A DNA stretch of 64,000 bases, taken from IMG/VR virus record IMGVR_UViG_3300031857_000091, positions 19,431-83,430 of that record; one strand, 5' to 3'. How positions within the stretch are numbered: position 1 is the first letter of the stretch; each line of letters starts with the position of its first letter. Below are positions 28,788 to 63,653 of the stretch, piece after piece. A model generated the notes under the pieces. That model ran no database searches. It worked only from the letters and a program-made list of their open reading frames with translations, and was not told the DNA's origin. Both the position numbers and the translations under genes were made by a program. Origin of the DNA: a virus.

Positions 28788-28813
28788 GTCAATTGTTGTC
28801 TCTAAATTGAAAA

Positions 28814-29026
28814 CTAAATTGAAAATTCGCTAATTGCGGTAGACAATCGGTCTATTTCTGCCAATTTATAGTGAGGAATAACCAGAACAAGGTCATCCCC
28901 AGTTCCGCAGGTTTCTAGGCTTACTACCCAGTTTTTCCAAGTTCTTTGAACCAGTAAAATTCGGTCTGTATCTATGTTTAGCTGGGTTGCAATAATTTGT
29001 TTTTGGAGATCTTGATTAATTTTCAT
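28814..29026 (-). CDS. Hypothetical small protein
   Basis: A 70-aa soluble protein of mixed alpha/beta character with a single Cys (SLETCGTGDDLVLVIP). It lies 49 bp after the operator-controlled gene and may be co-transcribed with it past a weak hairpin. No family recognised. Confidence 0.45.
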   Translation of the reverse strand: MKINQDLQKQIIATQLNIDTDRILLVQRTWKNWVVSLETCGTGDDLVLVIPHYKLAEIDRLSTAISEFSI

Positions 29027-34710: not shown

Positions 34711-35007
34711 ATGAAAAAAACAAGAAGACAACTAGAAACCTACCAAGCCGTTTATCAACGGAATAAGTATGCTCCAGTAAAAAAGAAGCTGTGTGAAGAA
34801 AAAAAAGAAAGTTTTCTCGCTCGTTATCCTGACTGGGAAAAAAAGAAATCTCGTCTTACTAATGAAGAAATATATATTATTAGTAGTTACTATGGTCTTA
34901 ATGGACATAGAGAATTTAACAGAAAAATAGCCAAGGAACTTAATATAAGTACGCAATGGCTATACGAGAAAAGAAAAAAGATAGAAGCTAAACTAGATCA
35001 AGATTAG
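34711..35007 (+). CDS. Small HTH protein, sigma region 4-like
   Basis: A 98-aa basic protein. The C-terminal half LTNEEIYIISSYYGLNGHRE to IAKELNISTQWLYEKRKKIE has the layout of sigma-70 region 4 (a -35 binding HTH). The first half is a Lys-rich helix. I start it at the ATG at 34711 because the earlier ATG at 34693 lies in the dnaB terminator stem. It may modify or replace host sigma specificity. Its end overlaps the convergent thyX by 20 bases. Confidence 0.6.
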   Translation: MKKTRRQLETYQAVYQRNKYAPVKKKLCEEKKESFLARYPDWEKKKSRLTNEEIYIISSYYGLNGHREFNRKIAKELNISTQWLYEKRKKIEAKLDQD

Positions 35008-35806
35008 CCTCGGTTAATCCAAAAGCTTCTAAAGATAACTGAAAAGGATTATCTGGAATACACTCAACCAAAGATAGCATCATTTGTGCTATCTTTTGTA
35101 TTTCTAGTTGCGCATCGGAAGAATTTCGTAGTCGCTGGAAATGAACAAAACTTCTAAAGTTAAAAGTAACATCAAAATCTACTTGCTTGCAGTAAGGAAG
35201 AAAGTACCTGCTACATTCTTTTGCTCTTTTTCTTCCTACTACTGGAGTCAATCTAGAGCAAGTCAAATGATATAACCTGTGCCCTAACTCGGCATAGGAA
35301 TTAAGTAAATTAATAATATCTCCAGGCTCGTTAAATTCTGGATAATTGGCTAAAGTTTCTGATAAATCATTTACTAGATGAATCTCTGTCCCGTCAAATG
35401 CAGCCCAGTCTGAGGGGAGATACCACTTATCAGGAAGTTCTTTGTATCTGGCAGATTCCGTGTTAATAGACACACCAATACGATGTTTAAGAAAGTGGAT
35501 ATGACTAGCGATATCGGCTCGTACCTGAAAATGTAAGGTACTTTTTTCAAAGGGAGTATGATGACCTGCTCTAGCCAAAGAGAGTAACAATTCTTTCGGC
35601 GATCGCTTTCTATTTTTTTTTGTGTCTTCAAATAACGAATTAATCCAAGTCTTCCCTCCAGAACCATCATTTACTGATTTTTCATAAAGAGATGATAGGG
35701 AGTCTATATTATCTAAACAGGTAGACTGCCAAGCTGATAAACAATGGGTTTCGTCCCCACCGTAGTAACCCATTAAAGCAACAAGATTTTGATGACGATA
35801 TTTCAT
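34988..35806 (-). CDS. thyX: Flavin-dependent thymidylate synthase
   Basis: A 272-aa ThyX. The family signature is present as KHRIGVSINTESARY at 107-121 (RHRX7-8S type, with Lys for the first Arg). Arg 109 and Ser 118 are retained, and AGHHTPFEKSTLHFQV near 80-95 is the usual substrate loop. It makes dTMP from dUMP with FAD and folate. It overlaps dcd by one base (TAATG), so the two steps dCTP to dUTP and dUMP to dTMP are co-expressed. Confidence 0.93.
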   Translation of the reverse strand: MKYRHQNLVALMGYYGGDETHCLSAWQSTCLDNIDSLSSLYEKSVNDGSGGKTWINSLFEDTKKNRKRSPKELLLSLARAGHHTPFEKSTLHFQVRADIASHIHFLKHRIGVSINTESARYKELPDKWYLPSDWAAFDGTEIHLVNDLSETLANYPEFNEPGDIINLLNSYAELGHRLYHLTCSRLTPVVGRKRAKECSRYFLPYCKQVDFDVTFNFRSFVHFQRLRNSSDAQLEIQKIAQMMLSLVECIPDNPFQLSLEAFGLTEANLDLV

Positions 35807-40516: not shown

Positions 40517-41197
40517 CTAACATTCTCCTGATTCCTCTTGCTCTAATGTCTTTTCCAAAACTTCAATAACTTGCATTGCTATCTTCTTCCAATCAAAAAA
40601 GTTTCCCTTCTCTATGTGCAACCGAAATTTATTGATAAAAAATATCTGTACTACACCGTGAATGCTTTTCATCTTGTTAGCTAGTGCAATCATTTTTTCA
40701 TCCTGATAATTTTCATATAAAAGGATGTTTGTGTCAAGAAAAGCACAATCTCTGCCTAAAGAATCGTTTTTGATTATTTCTAATTGAAATTTTTTCCCAG
40801 ACAAAGAGGTGTACTCAAACCTTTCTTCTAAAAGATTCCGAATTTGCTCAGCTATTTCTGACCATTCAAACAAATCCCCTTTTTGTAAATACACTCGGTA
40901 TTTATGAATAAAAGATACAATCGCTATCCCTTTGATATTGTTTATTTTTTCGGATAATTTACCCATCTGTTTGTCTCCGTATTCGACAAATAAAGCTGTT
41001 GTTGTATCAAGATAGGCACAATCTCTGCCTAAAGGATCGTTTTTGACTCTTTGTAGTCTAAATTTTTCCCCAGAAGATGATGTGTAATCGAATATTGTCA
41101 AAAATGTAGTATCAATACTTTGGTTTAGGCTGATTGTATCTTGATGTAAGTTCATTGGTTTTTGAGGTAAATTCATTGCTTCTTGAAGTAAATTCAT
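40517..41197 (-). CDS. Tandem-duplicated hypothetical protein
   Basis: A 226-aa protein made of two ~85-residue copies of one domain (residues ~40-125 and ~128-215). The copies align in order: YTSSSGEKFRLQRVKNDPLG with YTSLSGKKFQLEIIKNDSLG, then GRDCAYLDT with GRDCAFLDT, then FIHKYRVYLQKGDLFEW with FINKFRLHIEKGNFFDW. Before them is a short repeat of MNLxQ. No family recognised; duplication within one gene suggests a pseudo-dimer. Confidence 0.6.
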   Translation of the reverse strand: MNLLQEAMNLPQKPMNLHQDTISLNQSIDTTFLTIFDYTSSSGEKFRLQRVKNDPLGRDCAYLDTTTALFVEYGDKQMGKLSEKINNIKGIAIVSFIHKYRVYLQKGDLFEWSEIAEQIRNLLEERFEYTSLSGKKFQLEIIKNDSLGRDCAFLDTNILLYENYQDEKMIALANKMKSIHGVVQIFFINKFRLHIEKGNFFDWKKIAMQVIEVLEKTLEQEESGEC

Positions 41198-44949: not shown

Positions 44950-45403
44950 CTCTGCTCCATTATTTTTAACTCCTATGTTTTTACGCACGTTAATAGTGAA
45001 TGCTTTGGGGAATAAGATAGGGGTTTATTTTTTACCTAAAGCAACCTCTTCAATTCCGGCGATCGCTGTTATTCCTGATAAAGTTTATGGGGCTAACTAT
45101 CCCCCTCCTGAAACAACTATATCTGGGATTGAGGTGGTTATTCACCGCCCAAGACCAAATGCTACAGCACTACTAAATAATGACAGTATGCGTACTCGTA
45201 AATGGGAAATTTACCTTAATCAATGGGACGGTAATGGAGAATTAAATACATCGGTTGAAGCTTTATTAGATGCTTTTCAAGATAATCAGCTTAAGTATAC
45301 TTCTCCTGTTTTTCCTGAGTACAACCTAGATGCGGGTATTGTCCCTTATTGTCGAATAGCAATTATAGAAAAATTCTTTAGGATTGTGGAGAATAATATA
45401 TGA
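44942..45403 (+). CDS. Putative tail terminator protein
   Basis: A 153-aa alpha/beta protein directly after the gp10-like gene, where tail terminators are usually encoded. Its middle reads GIEVVIHRPRPNATALLNND and the length fits. Identification is by position and size only. Confidence 0.45.
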   Translation: MTSSAPLFLTPMFLRTLIVNALGNKIGVYFLPKATSSIPAIAVIPDKVYGANYPPPETTISGIEVVIHRPRPNATALLNNDSMRTRKWEIYLNQWDGNGELNTSVEALLDAFQDNQLKYTSPVFPEYNLDAGIVPYCRIAIIEKFFRIVENNI

Positions 45404-47664
45404 CTTTTATTTCACAATGGAAAACAGATAATACCGGGGGAATAAGCGCAAACAATCAAATCACCCTGCCGCTCGAACCCAGTGGTACGTACAACTTTAC
45501 TGTAAACTGGGGGGACAATAGTAGTGACGTAATTACTACTTGGAATCAACCTGCAACAACTCATACATACGCAACACCAGGCACTTATACTGTATCCATT
45601 ACAGGAACAATTATTGGTTTCAGATTTGCTAATACAGGAGATAAGACAAAAATTATAAATATTTCCCAATGGGGTAATTTGAGAGTTGGGAATAGTGCTA
45701 ATTATTTTCATGGTTGCTCTAATCTAACCTTAACTGCAAGCGATGCCTTAAATTTAACGGGAACAACTAATTTAACTAGTATGTTTACCGATACGGGTAG
45801 CTTTAATGGAGCAATAAATCATTGGGATGTTAGTAATGTTACTAATATGAATAACATGTTTTTACTAGCATCTAGTTTTAATCAACCTCTAAACAATTGG
45901 AATGTTAGTAATGTTACTAATATGAGTGGTATGTTTGCGTATGCCACTAGTTTTAATCAATCTCTAAACAATTGGAATGTTAGTAATGTTACTAATATGA
46001 CGTTTATGTTTTTAGTTGCAATTAATTTTAATGGCGCAATAAGTAACTGGAATGTTAGTAAAGTTACTAGCCTGGCGTATTTCCTTACTAATGCAGCCAA
46101 TTTCAATCAACCTCTAAATAACTGGGATGTTAGTAAGGTTACTAGTAGTGAGCTTATGTTTACTAATGCAGTCAATTTTAATCAACCTCTAAATAACTGG
46201 GATGTTAGTAAGGTTACTAATATGAATAGTATGTTTGAAGGTGCGACCAATTTCAATCAAAATTTATCACAATGGTGTGTAAATCTAATAACAAGTAAAC
46301 CTTTAAATTTTGATGCTTCTACCCCTAATTGGATGGGAGGTGATTCAACTCGACCCCAGTGGGGAACTTGTCCACCTAGAAATATACCCGGGTCTGTTAA
46401 TATTTATGGCAATACTGTCAGAGGAGAGACACTTACTGCAACAGTAACTGATGCTGATGGGACTCCTAACAACATCAGTTACCAGTGGCAGTCAAGCTTA
46501 AACAATATTGATTGGGTAGATATTGTAAATGCAACATCCTTTCAACTCGCACTTGTTACCGCTTTAGTAGGAAGACGGATTAGGGTAACCGCTAGTTATA
46601 CCGATAACTTAGGTACTAGTGAAACCATTACTAGTGCTCCAACTACTACAGTTACCCACATCAATATACCCGGGTCAGTAAGTATTTCCGGAAATGCTGT
46701 TAGAGGAAATACTCTTACAGCAACAGTCACTGATGCTGATGGAACTTCTACTATCAATTACCAGTGGCAGTCAAGTACAGATAATGGTATTAGTTGGTCA
46801 AATATTGTGGGAGCTACATCATTTCAACTTGCACTTGTTAATGACTTAGTAGGGAGACGCATTAGAGTAACAGCTGGATATACTGATAACTTAAATACTA
46901 GTGAAACTGTTGCTAGTGCTCCAACAGCTACAGTTACCACCATTGAAATTATTGGAATCTTAACGATAACAGGAGACCCCAGACAATATAAAGTTTTAAC
47001 TGCTATTATTGAAGACTTAAATGGAGTCAATGAATCAACTGTTACATATCAATGGCAAAAAAGTATTGACGGAATACAATGGATTAATATTGCTGAAGCG
47101 ACAATTGATAAATTATATTTAAAAGCTACTTACCAAAATCACTTTATAAGGGTAACATCTACTTATCAGACGTTGGGAGAAAACTTAGTTGAACTTACCA
47201 GCGATCGCACCGATTTAATTGCTTCTCCCTTCTCGATTCTAGATTTTGTTAAAACAAATAATTTTTATACTCAATCACCATTAGTTAATGCAGTCTTTAC
47301 CTTTGAATCATTTCCAGACTGGATAATAGACACAGAAACAGGTAATTTAGTGCCAGATTCAACCGGAAACAATGTCATTATTTGTACTGCGACTGTTCAA
47401 CAAAAAAAAGATCCTAATTTAGTTGTGCAATCAGGAGTTGACTATAATCGCATTTATTTTGAAGGCTACCTAATTAACCCAAAAACCTTGCTTGACGTAG
47501 AACAAGGAAAAAATGTAACGGCTGTCATTAATGGTAGACAAGGTGTCTTTGATTTTGTTCCCGTCATAGAATCTGGACAAGAGATACCACTTAAACAGCG
47601 AGAAGTAAATGGACAAAGAATCGCGGGATATTTTAGACTAGGAAATTTAATCAACCGTCAATAG
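45400..47664 (+). CDS. Multidomain virion adhesin (PKD + DUF285 + Ig-like)
   Basis: A 754-aa protein with three kinds of repeats. Residues ~20-75 form a PKD-like domain (TVNWGDNSS, TYATPGTYTVSITG). Residues ~130-305 contain six or more 25-residue BspA/DUF285 units, each with NQPLNNWDVSNVTNM and MF. From ~325 to ~590 there are two closely related Ig-like domains (GETLTATVTDADGT) and a third diverged one. The final ~150 residues resemble a virion attachment domain. DUF285 and Ig repeats are known from bacterial surface proteins, so this may bind the host envelope. It is overlapped by the preceding gene (ATGA). Confidence 0.75.
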   Translation: MTFISQWKTDNTGGISANNQITLPLEPSGTYNFTVNWGDNSSDVITTWNQPATTHTYATPGTYTVSITGTIIGFRFANTGDKTKIINISQWGNLRVGNSANYFHGCSNLTLTASDALNLTGTTNLTSMFTDTGSFNGAINHWDVSNVTNMNNMFLLASSFNQPLNNWNVSNVTNMSGMFAYATSFNQSLNNWNVSNVTNMTFMFLVAINFNGAISNWNVSKVTSLAYFLTNAANFNQPLNNWDVSKVTSSELMFTNAVNFNQPLNNWDVSKVTNMNSMFEGATNFNQNLSQWCVNLITSKPLNFDASTPNWMGGDSTRPQWGTCPPRNIPGSVNIYGNTVRGETLTATVTDADGTPNNISYQWQSSLNNIDWVDIVNATSFQLALVTALVGRRIRVTASYTDNLGTSETITSAPTTTVTHINIPGSVSISGNAVRGNTLTATVTDADGTSTINYQWQSSTDNGISWSNIVGATSFQLALVNDLVGRRIRVTAGYTDNLNTSETVASAPTATVTTIEIIGILTITGDPRQYKVLTAIIEDLNGVNESTVTYQWQKSIDGIQWINIAEATIDKLYLKATYQNHFIRVTSTYQTLGENLVELTSDRTDLIASPFSILDFVKTNNFYTQSPLVNAVFTFESFPDWIIDTETGNLVPDSTGNNVIICTATVQQKKDPNLVVQSGVDYNRIYFEGYLINPKTLLDVEQGKNVTAVINGRQGVFDFVPVIESGQEIPLKQREVNGQRIAGYFRLGNLINRQ

Positions 47665-49428
47665 TTCTTGCCAGATTGATTGATAATATGCTTGTAAATT
47701 TTTATCTGTGGTATTTAACCATAACTTTTTGTAATAATCTATTTGTCTTTGTATAGCTTTTCTTTTAAGCCCGTTAATTAATAGATTAATACAATAGTTT
47801 TGAATTTCACCAGAGAATAAATCCCGTAATTCATTTTCTGGCAAAAGATTACTGTTGCTTAGATAAGTTCGATAAGAGTCAATCGTTAAACTAGATGTTT
47901 TTTCTATCTGGCGCATAGAATTCCACAACTTTCTACTTATATCATCCACAAACGTTATCTGAGATGCGTATAGCAAGTTATTTATTTCATCCCTATCAGT
48001 TTCATTGTGCAGATAGATTTTTAGCAAAGTAAACTCAGTATTATTGATTGTCTGAGGTTTAAGTACTTCCGTTGAATCTACTTGTTTTTTAATTGGGGTG
48101 TTTATTGATTTAGACAATTCTGCCAGGTAATGCGCAGTTAATCCACTATTTCCCGCTCCCAATATTTCGGAGCAATAAGCCAAATAATGAGCTTGTAATG
48201 GCTGAGATTCAATCCTTGCTAACAACACTGCAACATCATGATAAACTTTAGCCCGAACCACCGGGTCGTTTAAGTCTTTATCTTTAAAAATATTATTTAA
48301 TAACCACTCTACCCAGTAAGGAGCAGTTGTTATTTTTTCCTTAAGGCTGTCTACTGTGTACCGAGAAATCCAATCAGCAGGGTCTAAGTTATTTGGGAGA
48401 GATAATACTTTTAAATGGAATTGCTCAATATTAATCAAATCAAAGACAGATTCAATGGTTCTACGGGAAGCCTCTACACCAGGATTGTCTCCATCAAAAA
48501 ATAATATTAACTGTCTCGATTTTGTGTATTTAATTAATCTGTTTATTTGATTCTTTGTTAAAGCCGTCCCTTGACAAGCCACAACATTTGTTATTCCAGA
48601 TTGATGTAAAGCGATCGCGTCAAAATAACCCTCGACAACAATTGCACAATCCTCTTGCCCAATACTTTTAACCGCATGATTCAACCCAAACAAAACTTTA
48701 CTTTTCTCAAATAGCCTTGTTTCTGGGGAATGCAAGTACTTAGGATTGCTACCGTCTAAGGAGCGACCACCAAAAGCAATAACTTTACCTAAGGTATCAC
48801 AGATAGGAACCATTAATCTGTCTCTGAATCTATCGTAATAGCCACCATCTTCTTTTTTTATTATCAAGCCAGCTTGCACACAGACATCTGGTCTGTATTT
48901 TTTATCTGCAACTAAATACTGATACAAGCTATCCCACCCATTAGGTGCATAACCTAATTGAAATTTATCTATTGTCTCTTGAATTAGTTTTCTCTCATCT
49001 AGATACTCCCTGACTTTTTCTCCCGCACTTCCTGATAACTGAGATTGATAGTACTTAGAGGCGATCGCTAAAACTTCTTTTAAGTTTTCATCCAGTTGTT
49101 TTTGCTGCTGAAACTCTTCTATGTTACTGTTCCCTGTGAATTCAACCTCAATATTACTGCGTCGTGCCAAGTCCAGGATTACTTCACTAAAACTTTGATT
49201 ATTTAATCTGGTCAAGAAATCAACAACATCCCCACCAGCGTCACACCCAAAGCAATGGTATACTTGCTTGTCTTCTGTCACAAAAAAGCTTGGGCTTTTA
49301 TCATCATGAAAAGGACAAACCCCTTTTTGACTTTGTCCCGCCTTCTTTAATACAACATAATCACTTATTACGTCAACAATATTTGTTGCTTCTTTTATTT
49401 TTTGAATACTATCAGTAGATATTAGCAT
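47647..49428 (-). CDS. dnaG: DNA primase
   Basis: A 593-aa DnaG. The zinc finger is Cys 38, His 41, Cys 59, Cys 62 (CPFHDDKSPSFFV, YHCFGC). The TOPRIM fold follows, with VVEGYFDAIALHQ near 259 and FFDGDNPGVEA near 302. The C-terminal ~180 residues are helical, as in the helicase-binding domain. It primes lagging-strand synthesis with the phage DnaB. Its 3' end overlaps the adhesin gene by 18 bases. Confidence 0.93.
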   Translation of the reverse strand: MLISTDSIQKIKEATNIVDVISDYVVLKKAGQSQKGVCPFHDDKSPSFFVTEDKQVYHCFGCDAGGDVVDFLTRLNNQSFSEVILDLARRSNIEVEFTGNSNIEEFQQQKQLDENLKEVLAIASKYYQSQLSGSAGEKVREYLDERKLIQETIDKFQLGYAPNGWDSLYQYLVADKKYRPDVCVQAGLIIKKEDGGYYDRFRDRLMVPICDTLGKVIAFGGRSLDGSNPKYLHSPETRLFEKSKVLFGLNHAVKSIGQEDCAIVVEGYFDAIALHQSGITNVVACQGTALTKNQINRLIKYTKSRQLILFFDGDNPGVEASRRTIESVFDLINIEQFHLKVLSLPNNLDPADWISRYTVDSLKEKITTAPYWVEWLLNNIFKDKDLNDPVVRAKVYHDVAVLLARIESQPLQAHYLAYCSEILGAGNSGLTAHYLAELSKSINTPIKKQVDSTEVLKPQTINNTEFTLLKIYLHNETDRDEINNLLYASQITFVDDISRKLWNSMRQIEKTSSLTIDSYRTYLSNSNLLPENELRDLFSGEIQNYCINLLINGLKRKAIQRQIDYYKKLWLNTTDKNLQAYYQSIWQELLTVD

Positions 49429-51325: not shown

Positions 51326-51429
51326 TTTTAACTAAGTAAGTTCTGGTTTATTCTTGATTCAACTAACAATATATTAATTTTTGGTTTAAATAACTTTTTT
51401 ATTTTTGTTCAATATTTGCTTTAAAACAT

Positions 51430-51459
51430 TTATTACAACTATCTATACATTTAGTGCAA
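51430..51459 (-). promoter_or_regulatory. Predicted promoter in the right inverted-repeat arm
   Basis: Minus strand TTGCAC and TAATAA at 18 bp, same arrangement as at 350-379. Upstream of it lie two copies of the TTGTCCCTCGCACCGTATT word. Confidence 0.45.
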
Positions 51460-51810
51460 TACGGTGCGAGGGACAAGTATGTTTTAAAATAATACGGTGC
51501 GAGGGACAAGTACTAACATAACTGCAGCCTATATCTGATAAGCTATTTGCCAATTCTTTAAATGTTTTATTTATTAAACATATTTTTACTACAGTAGGTT
51601 AGGTTTGACATTTTTCTATTTAGGTACACCCCTACTCAATAGCAAATATTCTCTCAGAGACCCCTAGCATCAAATTCTAGACACTTTACTACCTAGTTAA
51701 TAGGATTGTTCATTTAACCATTTTTTCGAGCTTTACACGCCCACTGGCGCGAAACATTTAAGCTAAATAAAAAAACAAACCATTTCCGGCTAAAGAGAAA
51801 ATTACTCAAA
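51430..51810. repeat. Right arm of the ~380-bp inverted repeat
   Basis: Reverse-complement copy of 1-379. Substitutions are spread along the whole length with hardly any indels, including in the part far from any gene. DNA from 51811 to about 52080 holds no gene and only T/A-rich and G-run sequence (a run of seven G at about 52015). Confidence 0.85.
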
Positions 51811-52084
51811 TCCAACTGCTATCGGTAGTTTCCCTCATTCCGAGACTTGCGATCACCTGGCTGTTAGGTTTCCCATCCGAAAAAAAATAAACACGCTCTC
51901 GCGCATTTGCGCGCATTCCGGAATTTATTAATTTTTTTTAAACATCCAAACCAGATAGTTAGAAATAAATAAACCAGTTATTTGTTTAAAAAAAATATTT
52001 TCTTATATATAGATGGGGGGGTAAAAATTTTACCTACCTCTTGTTTTTTAAACAGCACTCACAAATATATTACTAATTGCCAAA

Positions 52085-52590
52085 AGTATTGTGGTTAACG
52101 GATGATAGCAATTTTTGCCTATCAAAAGTAAGATAGCTATTAAGCTAAAGTAACCTAAAGTTTTAAACCCCTAAAACCCGCATGGTTGACGGATGCGCGA
52201 GGGTGTCGGTTTTTTGATAAGGGTAAAAAAGAGGCTAAAACCATTATGGTTAACGGATGATAGCGGTTTTTGCCCAACCTTTTTCCGACAGCTAATGTTA
52301 GTGGTTGGTTAGTAAAAAAGTCTTCAAATCCTTACTGTTAAGGGATAAAACGGCTTTTTACTAAATTTAATAGGTTCTGCTGTATTATAACGTTAAAATA
52401 GGCTAAAACCCGCATGGTTGACGGATGCGTTTAACTTAAAAAAGCTTAAAATTGTTATACTACTAATTTTAAAAATCGTTATTTTATAAGGGTTTGAGAG
52501 TTTCTATTAGAATGGCTTTAAAAATAAAACAGGACTTGTAGCAAGCTAAGACTTGCGTGGTTGAGGGATGCGTCAAAGATTTTAAAGTAT
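52085..52590. repeat. Array of six hairpins with a constant GGTTRACGG loop
   Basis: Six copies of GGTTRACGG or a close variant lie at 52094, 52184, 52248, 52336, 52416 and 52559. Each sits between arms that pair but differ in sequence: CGCAT/ATGCG in copies 2 and 5, ATTAT/ATGAT in copy 3, GCGT/ATGC in copy 6. Most copies also have an outer AAAACC/GGTTTT pairing. Compensating changes with a fixed loop indicate a selected RNA or single-stranded DNA structure. The array fills the gap before the DUF4054-like gene. Confidence 0.7.
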
Positions 52591-52620
52591 AATTACAGAT
52601 ATATTTATTAACAATAAAAA

Positions 52621-52993: not shown

Positions 52994-53515
52994 TTAAATC
53001 TTGTAATTCCGTGGCAACCAGAATATCTCCCCATCCTTTGGGCGATATTCTCGGATGCAATCAACTATTGCTGATGATTCCCCTAAGCTTAAGATTCCAA
53101 AGCGATCGCACCCACTATGTAAGGCGTAACGAACTTTTGCCGTTAATGGCTCGTTATTGATTTGAGCAACTATTTTAGTTCCGGTAACAACCTCTTTGAT
53201 ATTTGGCTTGGAATAAAGAGAAGCCGGGTAGATTCCAGGAAGATAAGATTTTTCTCTGGCTTTAGCGTGTTTTCCTCCTGGCATATAAGCAATATTTCGG
53301 TACTTAATGCAGACACTAGAAATATCGGGATTTTTATTGATGACTCCAACATCGACTGAATCTATGGGATAAGCAGTGATATCTAATTCACCAATAAACG
53401 AGAGAATGCACCCAAAAACAGTAGTCAAAGGAGGATATCGATAACTTTCTCGGTAATCGTGAGCAAATCTTCTAGGGAAAGACGCAACTGGCGCTTCTAT
53501 GTAAAGCTGTATCAT
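52994..53515 (-). CDS. cas5: CRISPR Cascade subunit Cas5
   Basis: A 173-aa Cas5 of the MYXAN (DevS/Cmx5) type. The N-terminal strand LYIEAPVASFPRRFAHDYRE near residues 3-22 and PPLTTVFGCILSFIGE near 28-43 are the Cas5 hallmarks, and GGKHAKAREKSYLP follows near 80-93. It caps the 5' handle of crRNA in the Cascade complex. It is shorter than usual (the family is commonly ~200-230 residues). Last gene of the cas operon; it overlaps cas7 by four bases. Confidence 0.75.
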   Translation of the reverse strand: MIQLYIEAPVASFPRRFAHDYRESYRYPPLTTVFGCILSFIGELDITAYPIDSVDVGVINKNPDISSVCIKYRNIAYMPGGKHAKAREKSYLPGIYPASLYSKPNIKEVVTGTKIVAQINNEPLTAKVRYALHSGCDRFGILSLGESSAIVDCIREYRPKDGEIFWLPRNYKI

Positions 53516-54384
53516 GATTGTTTGAAAAGCGCGTATTTAATAACATCGATACATTCTTTTATCCCATAACAGAGAGTTACTTCCATTTTCTCTAGGGTTT
53601 CGGCAAAATCCCCTAGCGCCGCTTCTCCTGCAACAATTATCTCATCAGGGTCGATGTCACCACAGGTTATTAATGGTTCTAGTTTTCTAGGAACACCGTC
53701 AGCATCAAAGCAATAAAGTATCTGAGGACTAGGGCTAGTTGTGATTCTTGCAACAATTGAAGCGGGAGCAAAGTCATATAAAAACCTAGAATGATTCCCT
53801 CCTACATGGCGCACATTAACAATAGCATCTAGTAAGTATTTGGCTCGCTCTGGTACGATAAAGTCTCCCATTTTAAACGCTACAGTATATTGATACTGCG
53901 TTGCGTGCACTTCGACGTTATACAGAGAAGTACTCGTTTTCATCTCTCCAGCTTTAGCGTTAAATATTTTGTCGCCATCATAGGGAGTTAAGCTCATCGC
54001 TCTGGCAACTTCTAAAACACCTCTTCTTTTTGTTGTGGCGTTTTTATTCTTGCTATCTTTCTTAGCATCCATGTAGCCAAAGATGTCATCATCTATGTAC
54101 TTGGTTTCATCATACCCCTCGTCTTTTATTTGATATTCGTCTACCATTGCGTCATAGATTCGATTGACTTGCTCTGGGTACACATTCCCCAAGTATTCTC
54201 GATATGCCCAGCGAATAGCTTCAGAGCTAACCGTTGTAAATTCTTGTATGAAACTATTATTTCTTAAGGAAATTTTCTGCAACGTAGATGTATTAGTTCC
54301 ATCTCCTTCTCCTCTATTATTAGAAGCAAATCCAAATGGCGTTAAGATGGAGATGAAACAATATTTATTATTGATAGGATTCAT
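53512..54384 (-). CDS. cas7: CRISPR Cascade backbone Cas7 (DevR-like)
   Basis: A 290-aa Cas7/DevR protein. Early strand ISILTPFGFASNNRGEG is followed by TLQKISLRNNSFIQEFTTVS and SEAIRWAYREYL near residues 34-68, the DevR pattern. Later VARAMSLTPYDGDKIFNAKA, NVEVHATQYQYTVAFKM and RHVGGNHSRFLYDFAP near 190-210 complete the RRM-like fold with its Gly-rich loop. Cas7 polymerises along crRNA. It overlaps cas8 by 17 bases and cas5 by four. Confidence 0.8.
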   Translation of the reverse strand: MNPINNKYCFISILTPFGFASNNRGEGDGTNTSTLQKISLRNNSFIQEFTTVSSEAIRWAYREYLGNVYPEQVNRIYDAMVDEYQIKDEGYDETKYIDDDIFGYMDAKKDSKNKNATTKRRGVLEVARAMSLTPYDGDKIFNAKAGEMKTSTSLYNVEVHATQYQYTVAFKMGDFIVPERAKYLLDAIVNVRHVGGNHSRFLYDFAPASIVARITTSPSPQILYCFDADGVPRKLEPLITCGDIDPDEIIVAGEAALGDFAETLEKMEVTLCYGIKECIDVIKYALFKQS

Positions 54385-55786
54385 TGTTGTTTTCTATTGA
54401 ATTAGGGAAATTGTACAGAAAAATAGATTGCAGTAGACAATCTCTAATTATTTTCCAATCATGTTCTGTTGCAAAGAATAAATCAATTTTTTCTGGGAAT
54501 AGTTTAGACAAATTCCTTTTGAAACTAAACTCGTTAGTAGGAGATTTCAATAAGTAACAAGTTTTAACTCTTAAACTGCGATAATTGGGAGTAGCTTTTT
54601 TTATTTTTTTGCTTTTGACATAAGCTTCCCACGCGGCTTCACTTAAAAACAATACTTCTTTGTAATAACTATCCCCGTGTTCTTGAATAAAAGACTTCAG
54701 AGTTTGTTTTTCGTAATATTGTTTCGTTAACAAAAATTGACCTAAATTGTAATGCCAATCGTTATTATTAATTAAATTCTCGGCAATAAATCCTAGCAAA
54801 TGAGATGAACTGATAAAAGTTTTTTCCTTTTCAGAAACTTTTGCTGAAGAATCAGTGTTAACAACTCTGGCTGTGTTAGGAATAGACAGGGAGAAAGCCT
54901 TAAAAAGCTCCCTGGTTTTATTATTGGTTGTCGGTCTGACAACTTTTTTCTTGATAAACCTCTGCTTTGAATTCCATTTTTGAGTACCTAAGACATAAAT
55001 CTCTTTTTCGAGTCCGTCTATATGTTTTTTGTAATGCGGTTGACAAGCAAAAGATAATAGAGCATCTCCAAATGATGAATAAAAAGAAAAAAGTAAATTT
55101 CTGGGGACTTTTGTCTCTAGTTGCTTGATTAAGTCATAAGGCTGTATTAAGACCATTCCTTTTCTTGCCCCTAAAGAATCATTGGATAATGAAACTATCG
55201 GCGCTTCTAGTGGGAGAAAAAACAACAAAAGAAATTTCTCTATTGATTCTAGGTTTTTCTCTGGGTTATGCTCATCCAATATCATTCCAGGAAAATTATT
55301 ACTTTTTATCTGGACTTTAGAAGCGAAAGTACCTTGTTGGGTAAACAATGCGGAAATAGCAGATGTGTAATAACAATCACTGATAGCTCTAGTTGTGGCA
55401 TGAAACGGAATGTTATCATTTCCAATAGTAAAAGTAAACTCTTTTTTTTCTCCAGTAAATTTCTTATGAGTATTATGTTGAAGAAAAGAATATAACAACC
55501 CTTCGCTAAAAACATACTTTTCTTCATCAGTCATCTCAAGACAAGGGGAGTTGATTAGCCCATCTTGAATAGAATAAGCAAACTTATTTAAAACGCTAAA
55601 AGCTATAATGTCGCTGCACTCATACGAAAGATTGATATGCCGAGGCTCAATTGAGTAAGTTATCTGATTTGGAGCTAATAAGTTTAGGCGATCGCCATAA
55701 TTTAAGGCTTTGGCAAGTCCCAAGATTCCTATCTTGTGTGGTAATAAATAATCTGGATTATCTAGCGAAAACATAAAGTTATTCAT
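54368..55786 (-). CDS. cas8: CRISPR Cascade large subunit Cas8 (I-B/MYXAN-like)
   Basis: A 472-aa protein in the large-subunit position of the operon. The first 25 residues (SLDNPDYLLPHKIGILGLAK) match the start of MYXAN Cas8 (Cmx1), where a GLxGL pattern is usual. The rest is variable, as is normal for Cas8. The C-terminal ~150 residues are helical (SSHLLGFIAENLI, FLLTKQYYEKQTLKSFIQ), fitting a Cas11-like bundle. No ATG lies in the last ~240 codons, so any separate Cas11 would need a GTG or TTG start. The size is small for the family. It recognises PAM and recruits Cas3 in known systems, but no Cas3 is encoded here. Confidence 0.7.
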   Translation of the reverse strand: MNNFMFSLDNPDYLLPHKIGILGLAKALNYGDRLNLLAPNQITYSIEPRHINLSYECSDIIAFSVLNKFAYSIQDGLINSPCLEMTDEEKYVFSEGLLYSFLQHNTHKKFTGEKKEFTFTIGNDNIPFHATTRAISDCYYTSAISALFTQQGTFASKVQIKSNNFPGMILDEHNPEKNLESIEKFLLLFFLPLEAPIVSLSNDSLGARKGMVLIQPYDLIKQLETKVPRNLLFSFYSSFGDALLSFACQPHYKKHIDGLEKEIYVLGTQKWNSKQRFIKKKVVRPTTNNKTRELFKAFSLSIPNTARVVNTDSSAKVSEKEKTFISSSHLLGFIAENLINNNDWHYNLGQFLLTKQYYEKQTLKSFIQEHGDSYYKEVLFLSEAAWEAYVKSKKIKKATPNYRSLRVKTCYLLKSPTNEFSFKRNLSKLFPEKIDLFFATEHDWKIIRDCLLQSIFLYNFPNSIENNNESYQ

Positions 55787-55839
55787 TGTTAGTTATCTCA
55801 TCTAAAGAATTCACTCACCATTAGGTAGTGGAGTGTCAA
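55787..55839 (-). mobile_element. IS605-like left-end fragment between cas6 and cas8
   Basis: A 53-bp piece matching the left end of the two IS copies: TTGAC target, CCACTACC/GGTGAGTG hairpin and GAGATAACTAACA. The TTGAC includes the stop codon of cas6, and the last base touches the cas8 ATG. The rest of the element is gone. It therefore supplies the intergenic leader and the region in front of the cas8 start. Confidence 0.75.
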
Positions 55840-56486
55840 TCAAACCACCCACATCCCATGTGTCTTTTTCCCCCAATACCTTGTACTTTTAAAGCAATAG
55901 ATTCCTGATTGCTTAAATTATTAATCTTGACTCCGTAGCCAATGTATGTAGTTTTGTGAGAATCTTTTTCTACGGTCATTATTGTATGGTTAGTTGCATT
56001 CCACGTGTTTTCTAACAAGAGCGGTTCTTTATCGATGTTGAGTATTGATAACTGTTTTTTGCAAGAGGCTAAAAATCTTTCTTGAGAATTTATTGTGTTC
56101 CAGAAAGGATATTTAATAATAACCATTTCTGAAATCAAGCTTTTTTCAGGACAAAGCGGGAGAATTGTTGCCTCATAAATAAAAACCTTGGTATTCCCTA
56201 TTGAAATAATTTGCTCGTTTAATGTTTTTTTTAACTCTGCAAGATAATCATGTGGTCCTCTAATTTTTAGTTTTGACTTGTTTGTAATGATTGTCCCGTA
56301 CCTAAAAGGTTTCCCAGATATTCTAGAAATATTAACATCAATTGGAAAATTTATATCAACTAAAAGTCCTGGATTTTTATCAAGAATCTTTCTTTTGAGT
56401 GCCGAATAAAGTTTATAGCCATGGTCAGCATTTATTCTATTCCCAATTACTGAGAAGAATAATTCAACAATTTCTAACTTTGCCAT
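55836..56486 (-). CDS. cas6: CRISPR RNA endonuclease Cas6 (MYXAN/Cmx6 type)
   Basis: A 216-aa Cas6. ELFFSVIGNRINADHGYKLY at residues 8-27 is the MYXAN pattern with candidate catalytic His 22; SKLKIRGP near 72-79 is the next conserved strand. The glycine-rich end GIGGKRHMGCGWF at 203-215 is the classic Cas6 G-loop. It cuts pre-crRNA at repeats and stays bound. It is the first gene of the operon, and its last codon is set by the IS-derived stop, so a few C-terminal residues may have been lost. No repeat array for it to cut is seen nearby. Confidence 0.85.
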   Translation of the reverse strand: MAKLEIVELFFSVIGNRINADHGYKLYSALKRKILDKNPGLLVDINFPIDVNISRISGKPFRYGTIITNKSKLKIRGPHDYLAELKKTLNEQIISIGNTKVFIYEATILPLCPEKSLISEMVIIKYPFWNTINSQERFLASCKKQLSILNIDKEPLLLENTWNATNHTIMTVEKDSHKTTYIGYGVKINNLSNQESIALKVQGIGGKRHMGCGWFD

Positions 56487-56578: not shown

Positions 56579-57322
56579 ATGTACACTTTGGTTGCAAACT
56601 CCCCTACTGTCATCAAAAGAAGTCTTGAACAATCATTTGAATTATTGCCTCAAGATAAACAAAATGTACTACCAGGTAAAAAAATTGTTAGTTCTGCTCT
56701 TAAGTCAAAAGCAGATAATCATTTTCAAATCTGCATTGATGGAGAAACATGGTTTATATATGCGCCTCATTGGATATTTCATATAGATTTATTGCAGTTA
56801 TCTGTTAAAGACTTACAGGGAGTTTTTTCTTATACCCCGGTATCTATCTTGGAAGCTTCATTACCATCTCTGCAAGAAGGGATAGATAAATATCAAATTG
56901 GATTTAATAGACAAAGAATTGCTGCTTTTCTTGCGCAAATAGGGCACGAATCAGGAGGACTGCGTTATACAGTCGAGCTAGCATCAGGGCAAGCCTATGA
57001 ATGGAGAAAAGACTTAGGTAATGTTAATCCTGGCGATGGAGTAAAGTTTAAAGGGCGCGGGTGGATACAGCTCACTGGGCGACACAATTATCGTCAAGCG
57101 GGTAAAGCTATTGGAGTTGATTTAGAGGCTAAGCCAGAATTAGCAGCAGACCCTAAATATTTAGGGTTATTAGCAGGATGGTTTTGGCACAGCCGTAACC
57201 TAAACTATTGGGCGGATAAAGGAGACTTTGAAAAAATAACCCGCCTAATTAATGGCGGGTTAAATGGGTATGCTGATAGATTAAGTTATTGGCAGCGGGC
57301 TAAAAAGGTCCTAGGAATTTAG
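56579..57322 (+). CDS. Endolysin, GH19-type with SH3-like N-terminus
   Basis: A 247-aa cell-wall hydrolase. Residues 1-85 form a beta-rich, probably wall-binding domain. The catalytic part is of the GH19 chitinase/lysozyme group: FLAQIGHESGG at 117-127 with Glu 124, then FKGRGWIQLTGRHNY at 157-171 and LINGGLNGYADR near 223-234. No signal peptide, so it would need a holin. AAAAGGTAACTTTC precedes the ATG. It is divergent from cas6, with 92 bp between them. Confidence 0.85.
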   Translation: MYTLVANSPTVIKRSLEQSFELLPQDKQNVLPGKKIVSSALKSKADNHFQICIDGETWFIYAPHWIFHIDLLQLSVKDLQGVFSYTPVSILEASLPSLQEGIDKYQIGFNRQRIAAFLAQIGHESGGLRYTVELASGQAYEWRKDLGNVNPGDGVKFKGRGWIQLTGRHNYRQAGKAIGVDLEAKPELAADPKYLGLLAGWFWHSRNLNYWADKGDFEKITRLINGGLNGYADRLSYWQRAKKVLGI

Positions 57323-59913: not shown

Positions 59914-59937
59914 TTTTTTAGTCAGCACCAAATAACT

Positions 59938-59980
59938 AAATCTCCAAATAAGAAAATTTCTAATCTTGTTTGGAGATTTT
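59938..59980. terminator. Terminator of a repeated type
   Basis: AAATCTCCAAATAAGA with a matching TCTTGTTTGGAGATTT arm. The same terminator, with slight changes, recurs at 61339, 61678 and 63588. Confidence 0.85.
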
Positions 59981-60030
59981 TTTATAGTATTATTGCCATT
60001 AATCACAAAAAGCTTTTAGGAAGTATCCCG

Positions 60031-60435
60031 ATGACCTCCCACAAACAATTAGTCTTAGCAATTAAATACATAGACACATTAAGGGCAGTCCATGGAGACA
60101 ATCTACAAGAGTTGCCAGAGCACCTAAATTCTGTTTATGCACAAGAACTTGTAAAAATCTTGACAAAGAAGCCAGAAAATATAGAGTCGCGATGTCCTTT
60201 CGCTAACGAGAACAATGATGTTACTCTTTATGACTTGATGAAAAAATATAATCTATCAAGAGCGGGACTCTATCGACGTTTAAAAGGATTATGTATGACC
60301 CCAGCTTACTACAAAAATAATGTAGGATTTTTTACAAGAAACCAAGTAGAGCTTCTAGACAAATTAGATGATTGGAGAAATAAAAACCGAAACGGAACAT
60401 TTACGGAATTTTGTTTTATTTATAATATCTATTGA
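60031..60435 (+). CDS. HTH-containing hypothetical protein
   Basis: A 134-aa protein. The middle part VTLYDLMKKYNLSRAGLYRRLKG near residues 70-92 is a clear helix-turn-helix followed by MTPAYYKNNVGFFTRNQVEL, as in MerR or phage regulators. TTAGGAAG precedes the ATG. It is convergent with the methyltransferase gene, overlapping seven bases. Confidence 0.6.
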   Translation: MTSHKQLVLAIKYIDTLRAVHGDNLQELPEHLNSVYAQELVKILTKKPENIESRCPFANENNDVTLYDLMKKYNLSRAGLYRRLKGLCMTPAYYKNNVGFFTRNQVELLDKLDDWRNKNRNGTFTEFCFIYNIY

Positions 60436-60962
60436 TTTATAAGATGCCAGATAGTTCCCATATCGGCAAAAACCGCCCTAAATCTTTCTGGATGTTGACC
60501 AAGGTAAATCAGAATAGATGTATGGGGTGGTGATTTCTGGGGACAATACCCTTGACTATCAGCATGGTAGATATCGTAAGCAATTCGTTTATGTGGGATA
60601 CAAACCCATTGATTAGTTAATAGGTCAGAGGCTATTCTAAGTATCTCCATGTTAAATGCCAGGAAAATAACCGAGTCTATTTCCCCCTTTCTATATTTGT
60701 TGACAGCAGCGGTAAACCAGATTGACTGAGAGCTTCTATTATTTATCTTGCCCCCTGGGGGATTAAGAAAAACATTCCCGCACCATTCTCTGTCTAACCC
60801 GTCAACATCAAAATATTGTTTAGCCTGAACCCTCTCAAGATTAACTTTTTGGCAGGTAGCCGGGTCTGTGTCTATCACCCCGTTAAAAACTAGTTTCACT
60901 TTGTCAACAATTGATAACGGGGTGTAGTGTTCGTTAGTCAAGCTTAGGTGCTGTGGAATCAA
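60429..60962 (-). CDS. Phage DNA N6-adenine methyltransferase
   Basis: A 177-aa enzyme of the phage Dam-like group. EHYTPLSIVDKVKL near residues 11-24 and DTDPATCQKVNLERVQAKQY at 31-50 are followed by the catalytic motif NVFLNPPGG at 63-71 and VIFLAFN near 97-103. It methylates adenine in DNA and may protect phage DNA from host restriction. Its upstream region carries four 21-bp repeats that may regulate it. Confidence 0.85.
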   Translation of the reverse strand: MIPQHLSLTNEHYTPLSIVDKVKLVFNGVIDTDPATCQKVNLERVQAKQYFDVDGLDREWCGNVFLNPPGGKINNRSSQSIWFTAAVNKYRKGEIDSVIFLAFNMEILRIASDLLTNQWVCIPHKRIAYDIYHADSQGYCPQKSPPHTSILIYLGQHPERFRAVFADMGTIWHLINQ

Positions 60963-60998
60963 GGTGATACTATTTTAAATAACTTTTATTACGACCAA

Positions 60999-61082
60999 AC
61001 TCCGAGCATAATGAGACTAACTCCGAGCATAACTTTAATAGCTCCGAACATAATGAGAGTAACTCCGAGCATAAGGAGAGTA
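60999..61082. repeat. Four 21-bp iterons upstream of the methyltransferase
   Basis: ACTCCGAGCATAATGAGAGT-like units start at 60999, 61020, 61041 and 61062, each exactly 21 bp apart (two helical turns). The fourth also forms a hairpin with ATGCTCGG at 61086-61093, which could end transcription. Placed between two minus-strand genes, they lie upstream of the methyltransferase start. Confidence 0.75.
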
Positions 61083-61108
61083 ACAATGCTCGGGTATTCT
61101 TTTGTCAG

Positions 61109-61279
61109 CTAAATAGTGGGATAGAAAACAGTTTCAATAAAACTTTTCTTAAGAACAAATCTGGGATTACGTGCACTAGTTTTATCTGGGATGATAAAAA
61201 ATACGTTTTCCCAGATTTGAACTTCTTTGATTGCAATACCGAGATATTCTTCTAAAAGTGGTTTGATATTGAATGACAT
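61109..61279 (-). CDS. Hypothetical small protein
   Basis: A 56-aa protein with a strong ribosome site (AAAGGAGGCTAATG) before the ATG at 61279. An N-terminal helical half and a beta half with ENVFFIIPDKTSARNPRFVL. No family recognised. It is transcribed toward the iterons. Confidence 0.5.
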   Translation of the reverse strand: MSFNIKPLLEEYLGIAIKEVQIWENVFFIIPDKTSARNPRFVLKKSFIETVFYPTI

Positions 61280-61338
61280 CATTAGCCTCCTTTGATACAA
61301 ATCTTTTTCTATTTTAATCCTACTCTTCTAGTAACTTA

Positions 61339-61379
61339 GTCTCCAAGCAAGAAAACTTTTAATCTTGTTTGGGGATTTT
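61339..61379. terminator. Terminator of a repeated type
   Basis: Copy of the stem-loop at 59938, with TCTCCAAGCAAGA and TCTTGTTTGGGGA arms and a T-run. It is not next to a plus-strand gene end, and lies ~70 bp before the tRNA-like RNA. Confidence 0.75.
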
Positions 61380-61447
61380 TGTGTCAATTCATTAAATCCC
61401 AGATAGTGTCAAGTCCGTAAAATTGTCGTAAATGCTATAATAAAAAT

Positions 61448-61524
61448 GAGCAGTGTGGTGTATTAAAATTAGCACAGGGGACAAGCTCTCCCCGTGATTG
61501 AGGTTGAATCCTCAACGCTGCTCA
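61448..61524 (+). ncRNA. 77-nt tRNA-like RNA
   Basis: The segment can fold as a tRNA: acceptor GAGCAGT with GCTGCTC and a final A; a D-like stem GTG/CAC; an anticodon-like stem GGGGA/TCCCC with a seven-base loop CAAGCTC; and a T-like arm TTGAG/CTCAA around GTTGAATC. A -10 box TATAAT lies six bases before the first nucleotide, so transcription would start at position 1. It departs from a normal tRNA: no T at position 33, no GG in the D loop, an eight-base T loop, and CCA not encoded. GGGGACAA could also pair with TTGTCCCC at 61543-61550. A degenerate tRNA or tRNA mimic is the best reading. Confidence 0.55.
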
Positions 61525-61677
61525 GGACAACCGCTACTCTATTTGTCCCCAATCTTATTGTGCAGTGAAAATAAGCAATGACGTTTACATCCTTGTTGCC
61601 CCCAATGAAAAGCAACTCTTGTAAAGAGAATACCATATTCCGGTGTGCGATCGCTGATTAATCTTCTCTTAATAACC

Positions 61678-61721
61678 AAATCTTCAAGCAAGAAAACTTC
61701 TAATCTTGTTTGGGGATTTTT
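61678..61721. terminator. Terminator in the duplicated antirepressor leader cassette
   Basis: Third copy of the repeated terminator. It begins a ~120-bp block (terminator, promoter-like TATAAA, class A leader) that is nearly identical to 63588-63709. Confidence 0.8.
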
Positions 61722-61743
61722 GTGTGATAGTATAAACAAATAA

Positions 61744-61799
61744 ATCACCGCGAACTGAAGTAGTGTCGAGCTACTCCGTCGCACTCTGGTGATAACCCC
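61744..61799 (+). promoter_or_regulatory. Class A leader RNA before the intact antirepressor gene
   Basis: TCACC/GGTGA, GCGA/TCGC and AGTAG/CTACT form three coaxial helices; AACCCC follows, and the start codon is 26 bases further. The nearest possible -10 is TATAAAC at about 61730, so the RNA would open the transcript. Confidence 0.8.
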
Positions 61800-61824
61800 A
61801 AATACTAGTTGGAGCTAATAAAAT

Positions 61825-62580
61825 ATGCTAACTGTTTTTCGTACCGAAATCAAGATCGGTAATCAGGTCACTTTTGCTTATTCTGCCAACGAAATCGATT
61901 CTAATGGAAATCCCATTAATTATCTAAATAATGTGCAACTAGCTGAATTGATCGGATTGAATAAAACCACAGCGTTGCAAACGAGGATGTCCGAGGAGCT
62001 GAAAGTCATGCTAGGCAAGGACTGGACAGCGGTGCAAGGACAATATCAAATGACTTCGGGCGGGAAGACAAAAGTATCTCTTTGGACTGCTGATGATTGC
62101 ATTATCTATTGGACGTACCATGCTGAGAAAGGTAATAAAACAGCATTTAAATTAATCTGTGCATTAGCTGCAACTAGTCTTGACACAATCATTAACGACG
62201 CTTTTAACCGAGACTATAAAAAAGGTCAAGCTGAGTCTTTGACTAATGCCAGATTATTAGGCAAGGTCAAGCGACGTGAGTTAACCGATGCGATTAAAGA
62301 TTATATCCCCCGCCATAACAAGTCTGCTGACTACCAAAAATGGATATATCCCAACATTACCGATGCTATCAATCTAGGTATTTTCAACCGACGAGCATCT
62401 CAGCTAAAAGAGGATTGGGATACCAAGAATCCACGGGACAGTATGACAGAGATTGAGCTTGATTACGTTAAACAAGTGGAAGATTTAGCATCTCGCTTGA
62501 TTGACCAAGATGATATCGAGCCATTGAAAGCGTCAATAGAAGCTTTGACTCGGTTAATTATCCCGGTGTGCGATCGCTAA
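61825..62580 (+). CDS. Antirepressor-family protein (intact copy)
   Basis: A 251-aa protein. The N-terminal ~60 residues (FRTEIKIGNQVTFAYSANE, NYLNNVQLAELIGL) are shared with the truncated gene at 49758; the C-terminal 40 with the relics at 27679 and 61637. The middle has KLICALAATSLDTIINDAFN and a region ending in YIPRHNKSADYQKWIYPNIT. The overall plan (DNA-binding start, helical body) and shared leader with KilA-N genes suggest a phage antirepressor, but I do not recognise a named domain. Confidence 0.65.
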   Translation: MLTVFRTEIKIGNQVTFAYSANEIDSNGNPINYLNNVQLAELIGLNKTTALQTRMSEELKVMLGKDWTAVQGQYQMTSGGKTKVSLWTADDCIIYWTYHAEKGNKTAFKLICALAATSLDTIINDAFNRDYKKGQAESLTNARLLGKVKRRELTDAIKDYIPRHNKSADYQKWIYPNITDAINLGIFNRRASQLKEDWDTKNPRDSMTEIELDYVKQVEDLASRLIDQDDIEPLKASIEALTRLIIPVCDR

Positions 62581-62666
62581 TCTCCTAATTGATTGGCACG
62601 CTAAATAAGTAAAGAATTAATCTTGTTTAGCGTGGTATAGTTTTACAAACACAAAAAAGAAAAGAT

Positions 62667-63563
62667 ATGACATTTTCAATAATCCGGCAAAAGATTGATC
62701 AAAAGAAATTTGAGAGTTTTGTATTAACAGTCACTCCAGACTTAGCTCAATATATATTGACTCATCACAATATCTCCAATAACAGAAAGATTTCATTAAA
62801 TAAAGCAAGGCTTTATGCTGACTGCATGAATCAAGGGGTTTGGATGATTGGAGATTCATTAAAGTTTGATATAGAGGGGATGCTGTGTGATGGGCAACAT
62901 CGCCTAAAAGCTGTTACCATTTACGGTGCTTCTGTTGATTTTTTGGTTACGGTTGGGTATGAACCCAGATCTGCGCAGGTTTTGGATAGAGGAAAAGCGA
63001 GAAGCTTACCAGATGTTGCAGCTTTAAGGGGAGACGACTGGATAAAGCCAATACATTTAAGTACCTTTAATTCAATGTTTTATACAGGGAAATGTGATTC
63101 TCGCAAGTCCAGTCTTTTATCGGATGATTACAGAATTCAGTGTTTGAATGACTTAAAAGAAGGGATTCTATTTGCCAGTCAAAAACTTGGAGGGACAAGA
63201 GCAATTCGTTGCTCAGCTTTTCGTGGGGTTATAGCAAGAGCTTATTATGCAGACAAGTTTATAGAAAGAGGGTTATTGTTGAATTTTCTTCTTTTCTTCT
63301 ATGGCTATGATCCAAAAGAAAGTCCTGAATTGTTTGACCAGGATTTTTTGACGTACTCTTCTGCAATTATTATTCGATTAAGAGAATTTTATTTGGCAAA
63401 TAATTGGAGCAGATATGGAACACTAGAAGGGCGAGGGCAACTTGAAACAAAAGCTTTTCTTGTTCAAAATGTTTTAAAAAATTATCTTGAACAGACAAAT
63501 GTCAGACAATTGAGGTTATCAGAAGAGATTCTATTCCCCTCTAAACTGATCGATTCTATCTAG
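62667..63563 (+). CDS. ParB-like DGQHR-domain protein
   Basis: A 298-aa protein. LNKARLYADCMNQGVWMIG near residues 44-62 and the motif MLCDGQHRLKAV near 72-83 are typical of the ParB/sulfiredoxin-like DGQHR proteins of phages, which bind nucleotide near the Arg. The C-terminal 150 residues are helical and of unknown role. It may act in DNA modification or partition; the phage group has no agreed function. Confidence 0.6.
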   Translation: MTFSIIRQKIDQKKFESFVLTVTPDLAQYILTHHNISNNRKISLNKARLYADCMNQGVWMIGDSLKFDIEGMLCDGQHRLKAVTIYGASVDFLVTVGYEPRSAQVLDRGKARSLPDVAALRGDDWIKPIHLSTFNSMFYTGKCDSRKSSLLSDDYRIQCLNDLKEGILFASQKLGGTRAIRCSAFRGVIARAYYADKFIERGLLLNFLLFFYGYDPKESPELFDQDFLTYSSAIIIRLREFYLANNWSRYGTLEGRGQLETKAFLVQNVLKNYLEQTNVRQLRLSEEILFPSKLIDSI

Positions 63564-63587
63564 GTTGATGTGTCTTACCAAATAACC

Positions 63588-63631
63588 AAATCTCCAAGCA
63601 AGAAAACTTCTAATCTTGTTTGGAGATTTTT
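63588..63631. terminator. Terminator in the second leader cassette
   Basis: Fourth copy of the repeated terminator, 25 bp after the DGQHR gene. It has a perfect AATCTCCAA and TTGGAGATT pairing. Confidence 0.85.
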
Positions 63632-63653
63632 GTGTGATAGTATAAACAAATAA

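Follow-up and report, generated by a model that had tools for sequence, protein, structure and literature searches.

Why would a virus carry the core of a CRISPR (clustered regularly interspaced short palindromic repeats) effector complex without Cas3, adaptation genes or an array of guides? The question is raised by a 64,000-nucleotide stretch of viral DNA, hereafter the window, which comprises bases 19,431–83,430 of the 83,430-bp IMG/VR virus record IMGVR_UViG_3300031857_000091 and in which four intact minus-strand open reading frames (ORFs) at 52994–56486 form a type I-B/MYXAN Cascade operon in the order cas6-cas8-cas7-cas5. The 19,430 bp of the contig that lie outside the window were searched as well, and coordinates in that part carry the prefix L001. 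With confidence a little short of even, we read the operon as a host-derived I-B (MYXAN) Cascade cut down to the part that handles CRISPR RNA (crRNA), acting as a decoy against host CRISPR immunity. Somewhat more tentatively, we propose that it is an anti-CRISPR made from an almost whole multi-subunit Cascade, which has been stripped of its DNA-acting parts (Cas3, a separate Cas11 and the Cas5 C-terminus) and soaks up host guides.

The ORFs and profile searches bear out the initial annotation, which had described four adjacent minus-strand genes with I-B/MYXAN signatures, and profile hidden Markov models place all four products in Cas families. Cas6 (55836–56486, minus strand; 216 amino acids) is a MYXAN-type crRNA endonuclease that retains the ADH motif (H22) and the glycine-rich GGKRHMGCG loop, matching PF09559 at 3.2e-36 and TIGR02807 with 98.8 bits against a cut-off of 98.85. 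The Cas7/DevR backbone subunit (53512–54384, minus strand; 290 amino acids) is the best conserved of the four and scores 106 bits with TIGR02585 (1.4e-30), over the cut-off of 72.75. The large subunit, Cas8a1/Cmx1 (54368–55786, minus strand; 472 amino acids), is strongly diverged, with a C-terminus about 30 amino acids shorter than in its relatives; it matches TIGR03485 at 2.8e-19 (69 bits, under the cut-off of 80.85) and the PADLOC Cas8b model at 4e-22. Cas5 (52994–53515, minus strand; 173 amino acids) is about 45 residues shorter than its relatives and is without their conserved GLIxLPxWIDR...GT C-terminal block, and it matches TIGR02586 at 1e-14, under the cut-off, and PADLOC Cas5b at 3e-21. 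That Cas8 and Cas5 fall well under the strict NCBIfam cut-offs fits their divergence. Fold comparison also places Cas8, whose AlphaFold2 (AF2) model (pLDDT 86) matches 8fcj_I, the Cas8 chain of a solved I-B Cascade, with an E value of 2e-20 and a query-normalised TM-score of 0.73; the Cas5 model matches an 8fcj subunit with a query-normalised TM-score of 0.71. Cas7, Cas8a1/Cmx1 and the MYXAN-type Cas6 are thus each recognised as components of a type I-B/MYXAN Cascade, and Cas5 is recognised by family and fold but is not full length, its conserved C-terminus being gone. The cas8 and cas7 genes overlap by 17 bp and cas7 and cas5 by 4 bp, like a functioning operon.

What the operon is missing is as telling as what it holds. 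On the whole 83.4-kb contig, which may itself be incomplete, we found no Cas3 HD domain, no tblastn match to Cas3, Cas1 or Cas2 and, in a further search, again no Cas1, nor was there a CRISPR array anywhere on it, including the 19,430 bp outside the window; these absences, first described for the window, hold for the rest of the contig too. The closest host operons read cas6-cas3-cas8-cas7-cas5-cas1-cas2, so that the phage operon is its relatives' order minus cas3, cas1 and cas2. Nearly every one of the 80 genome loci extending far enough has cas3 between cas6 and cas8; where the host loci (L002–L086) carry this gene of about 2.2–2.5 kb, the phage has a gap of 49 bp (55787–55835, minus strand). 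A UvrD-like helicase encoded elsewhere on the contig (L001 9815–11701) was rejected as a Cas3 substitute, as it belongs to another family and is distant from the operon.

Guides, too, appear to be foreign to this contig. A covariance model built from 32 family repeats, which scores 42 bits in a host locus outside its training set, reached at best 9 bits on the whole contig with filters off, and because neither an array nor a solitary family-type repeat is present on the contig, guides must come from elsewhere. The initial suggestion of guide RNAs encoded outside the window found no support, as none turned up in the remainder of the contig. Arrays of this family share a common core, GATGCCGTAAGGCGTTGAGCAC, across phyla, and their repeats are nearly identical even where identity of the host Cas6 to the cyanobacterial Cas6 drops to about 31%. 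Since the repeats are conserved despite Cas6 divergence, it is plausible that the phage Cas6 (30–34% identical) accepts host repeats. Among the initial proposals, reliance on a host array is hence the most plausible: the contig lacks a guide source, and with a family repeat this conserved, crRNAs of the host would frequently match.

The feature that best distinguishes among possible functions lies inside cas8. Small subunits of type I-B systems are translated from an internal start within this gene (PMC11899642, PMC11096372). In a protein alignment of 93 Cas8 sequences (the phage and 92 relatives, comprising hosts and CRISPR-associated transposons, CASTs), one internal column carries a conserved methionine, and we read the start column at codon level. 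All 92 relatives have an internal start codon (80 ATG, 8 GTG, 3 TTG and, in one host, an ATG one codon later), typically with an AAGGA-like Shine-Dalgarno sequence 10–14 bases upstream, and the conserved position is the first residue of the separate Cas11 chain, 8fcj_J. At this position the phage has TTT (codon 366; 54689–54691, minus strand), reading TTT ATT, and the upstream Shine-Dalgarno sequence is also absent. The last 172 codons of the phage cas8 contain no ATG, and the only visible alternative start for a Cas11-like product is a TTG at codon 352 (54731–54733, minus strand), with a weak AGG upstream. CAST Cascades must bind DNA, and three CAST loci (L066, L067 and L084) keep an ATG at the Cas11 start; TnsB, TnsC and TniQ were confirmed for L066 and L084, and L067 was called a CAST from its cas gene set and tree position only. 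The description of this operon as a complete Cascade is therefore an overstatement: the four genes are intact, but the Cas11 start and its Shine-Dalgarno sequence are missing and Cas5 is truncated.

Change is spread unevenly over the four proteins. Identity to the near host clade is 52% for Cas7, 42% for Cas5, 29% for Cas6 and 25% for Cas8, compared with host–host values of 74%, 69%, 62% and 60%; against individual hosts, phage Cas7 reaches up to 56% and Cas8 25–32%. Phage branch lengths, in changes per site, are 4.6 for Cas5, 3.9 for Cas8, 3.5 for Cas6 and 1.7 for Cas7, and the ORFs are intact nonetheless. Among conserved columns, the phage has changed 6 of 67 in Cas7, 3 of 19 in Cas6, 3 of 20 in Cas8 and 15 of 34 in Cas5, where the entire conserved C-terminus is lost; the invariant P166-G167, W271 and Q275 of Cas8 are retained. 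To judge from these alignments, it looks as if crRNA processing and wrapping have been kept by selection, with change concentrated on the side facing target DNA.

The operon appears to have come from a host locus. In the Cas7 tree the phage, on a long branch, is neighbour to a clade of 27 cyanobacterial loci with cas3 (SH-aLRT, the Shimodaira–Hasegawa-like approximate likelihood ratio test, 99) and stands away from the CASTs. The comparison with CAST and host proteins that had been suggested at the outset thus favours the cas3-bearing clade, but an approximately unbiased (AU) test of a joint clade of phage and CAST Cas7 gave p 0.069, which is no formal rejection. CAST membership is not supported by this tree position, with the AU value for the joint clade noted. 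No TnsB, TnsC or TniQ gene was seen in the operon or its annotated neighbours, and a search of the contig for TniQ gave no match, although its controls were silent too.

How might such a remnant work? An I-B Cascade without Cas11b assembles, protects crRNA and keeps it at normal levels but loses interference, and an I-D complex without Cas11d shows no target DNA binding (PMC11899642). As the Cas11 start is lost in the phage and kept in CASTs, and I-B Cascade without Cas11 does not interfere, an inert decoy that captures crRNA is favoured over a silencer that binds DNA; an operon that brings neither Cas3 nor Cas11 nor guides would most simply serve to sequester the crRNAs of the host, or to poison its Cascade. 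During infection, phage Cas6 would bind or cut host pre-crRNA, and phage Cas7, Cas5 and Cas8 would either assemble around host crRNAs or combine with subunits of the host. The resulting complexes, without Cas11 and Cas3, would fail to clear the phage while host crRNAs or subunits were tied up; in an alternative form, misfit phage subunits would poison the host Cascade during infection. Expression of the operon, binding of host repeats and inhibition of host interference are what we infer here. The decoy logic has precedents in Racr RNAs, which tie up Cas6 and Cas7 (PMC10651486), and in phage Cas9 with a dead RuvC, which is thought to sequester crRNAs (PMC11656645).

Several observations weigh against a crRNA-capturing decoy. 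The modelled Cas8 still has its full fold and keeps 17 of 20 conserved columns, and a pure crRNA sponge might need neither. The 1,328 spacers from related arrays gave only short matches to the phage (best, 19 nucleotides), so that targeting by I-B hosts is not supported. The complex could still obtain a small subunit, either translated from the TTG at codon 352 or supplied by the host as Cas11. That the Cas11 part is 17% identical to hosts is not in itself unusual at such divergence, and we rejected it as evidence of decay because CASTs and other distant rows show a similar ratio. Finally, no second phage with the operon was found, and the case is built on one sequence.

Retention of the Cas8 fold and of its invariant residues would suit a nuclease-less silencer, in which host crRNAs or an unrecognised phage guide lead the complex to DNA, where it blocks transcription or shields protospacers in the manner of CRISPR interference (CRISPRi) or type IV systems; Cas3-less type I variants of huge phages have been proposed to silence host genes (PMC7162821). 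This was the first function suggested for the locus, and we now consider it improbable: the Cas11 start and Shine-Dalgarno sequence are absent here and the start is kept in three CAST Cascades that need DNA binding, the I-D complex without Cas11 does not bind, Cas5 is truncated and no guide was found on the contig. A more unlikely arrangement is a working system in trans, with the phage complex using host crRNA, Cas11 and Cas3 against rival phages or host DNA. Cyanobacterial host loci with cas3, a Cas11 start and matching repeats are common, and the phage Cas8 fold is kept. Yet recruitment of Cas3 in type I systems falls to Cas8, and the identity of the phage Cas8 to host Cas8, only 25–32%, weakens the earlier idea that host Cas3 is borrowed along with the array; moreover, a host that already has its own I-B Cascade would draw no obvious benefit from a second one, and anti-phage spacers pose a risk of self-destruction.

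The contig may be a fragment, since the record is classed 'linear' without end repeats and about 7.5 kb separate the operon from the right end, and an array, cas3 or a guide gene could then sit on an unassembled part of the phage genome. We give this a small chance, if anything slightly below that of a system in trans, because the relatives' cas3 site between cas6 and cas8 is here the 49-bp gap, and the contig includes genes for structure, packaging, replication and lysis alike. Least probable of the four is that the operon is a decaying passenger, recently captured from a host and without function. Long branches in all four genes and the losses in Cas5 and Cas11 are what decay would leave, but four intact, overlapping ORFs after such change, together with 61 of 67 conserved positions kept in Cas7 and 16 of 19 in Cas6, indicate purifying selection on the crRNA side.

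Among known systems, cyanobacterial I-B/MYXAN loci (for example those of the [Synechococcus] NIES-970 plasmid, the S. elongatus UTEX 3055 plasmid and Geminocystis GBBB08) share the Cas6, Cas8a1, Cas7 and Cas5 families and their order with the phage but possess cas3 and the Cas11 start and, for the most part, cas1/cas2 and an array. I-B CASTs (the PmcCAST structure 8fcj; L066, L067 and L084) likewise have cas6-cas8-cas7-cas5 without cas3 and give the best structural match of the phage Cas8 and Cas5; they differ in having TnsB/TnsC/TniQ, repeats and the Cas11 start, and in their position in the Cas7 tree. Phage-borne type I effectors without Cas3 are an already known kind: the type I-C variant of huge phages also lacks Cas1/Cas2 and Cas3, but it has an I-C-like Cas5, a helicase replacing Cas3 and no Cas6, whereas the present operon is I-B, with Cas6 and no helicase (PMC7162821). 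Racr anti-CRISPRs divert crRNA and Cas subunits into a non-functional complex, as we propose here, by means of a repeat-like RNA, whereas the present phage carries proteins and no repeat was found (PMC10651486). The phage Cas9 with inactive RuvC (II-C2), a suspected anti-CRISPR acting through sequestration of host crRNA, is by contrast a single class 2 protein that keeps HNH and its own tracrRNA (PMC11656645, PMC12669027). Cyanophage N-1, which also carries part of a CRISPR system, is a mirror image, with an array (I-D-like repeat) and no cas genes (PMC4916379).

Open-access full text, a scope that leaves out Al-Shayeb et al. 2022 (Cell), the principal survey of CRISPR systems encoded by viruses, yielded no description of a phage I-B Cascade that has neither array nor Cas3 nor Cas11 start. 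A 2024 review calls it an enigma why viruses often took pieces of CRISPR RNA as inhibitors but apparently not Cas proteins (PMC11656645), and this locus is a concrete candidate for that missing case. Loss of the Cas11 start separates the competing ideas, as it predicts crRNA capture without target binding; should the phage complex turn out to bind DNA, it would represent a natural I-B silencer of compact form.

Searches by Cas7, Cas8, DnaG and site pattern found no close viral relatives. Cas7 matches (24%) to a Listeria 'phage' were discarded, the contig being unverified and carrying cas3, cas1, cas2 and a 36-repeat array, that is, a complete system. Viral contigs with a related Cas6 (L104–L115) lack the I-B cas5, cas7 and cas8 genes. 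The one examined, L108 (IMGVR_UViG_3300043571_000443), is type IV: like the present phage it lacks Cas3 and has a Cas6 (about 33% identical) from this broad family, but it carries Csf2/Csf3 and a small-subunit (Cas11) gene and is not I-B. Type IV Csf2/Csf3-type subunits are absent from the present operon, whose Cas7 and Cas5 match I-B and not type IV models. In L108, the type IV-like Cas11, Csf2 and Csf3 genes and the MYXAN-like Cas6 adjoin a HerA-like ATPase, and L104–L107 carry a Cas6 similar to that of L108.

The contig is a cyanophage. It encodes terminase, portal, major head protein, DnaB, DnaG and endolysin, its large terminase subunit (TerL) shares 40% identity with the counterpart in Synechococcus phage S-CBS4, and it holds 32 HIP1 sites (GCGATCGC). 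As first described, the operon stands among phage genes: the chitinase-like endolysin (56579–57322, plus strand; phrog_181, 7.7e-55) is divergent from cas6 at a distance of 92 bp. The other flank is a non-coding block (51429–52619, plus strand) that self-blastn identifies as a 93% identical inverted copy of contig 18620–19810, which marks this side, too, as the phage's own DNA. Position between the endolysin and this duplicated block makes a chimeric assembly unlikely.

The 1.19-kb block thus occurs twice, inverted and about 51 kb apart (the second copy runs from L001 18620 to window 380), and the pair is a possible genome inversion point. In each copy, GGTTRASGGATG recurs five to six times in direct orientation, perhaps as operator or iteron sites. 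The five sites near the operon (52093–52570) were considered as a degenerate CRISPR and rejected: they are unevenly spaced and differ from the family repeat, six more form a second cluster 52 kb off in the inverted copy, just one of six has a better fold than shuffled sequence, and nothing in Rfam fits. A second inverted pair of about 395 bp, 98% identical, lies at contig 28559–28952 and 47823–48222 (about window 9129–9522 and 28393–28792). Near the right end of the contig, a 76-nucleotide element with an inverted repeat, AAATCTCCAAGCAAGAAAACTTCTAATCTTGTTTGGAGATTT, occurs in four copies (window 59918–63643), and four copies of a 21-bp tandem repeat, AACTCCGAGCATAATGAGAGT, stand at window 60998–61084, just outside a methyltransferase-like ORF (60429–60962).

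The phage also carries nucleotide metabolism genes, namely CTP synthase (L001 13946–15583), ThyX (window 34988–35806) and the small subunit of ribonucleotide reductase (window 24032–25066), and a tRNA-Met (CAT) gene at L001 16877–16950. A 754-amino-acid protein with DUF285 and Ig-like repeats (window 45400–47664) is possibly a tail or adhesion protein, and a 226-amino-acid phage protein (window 40517–41197) ends in an Nfu/NifU N-terminal domain.

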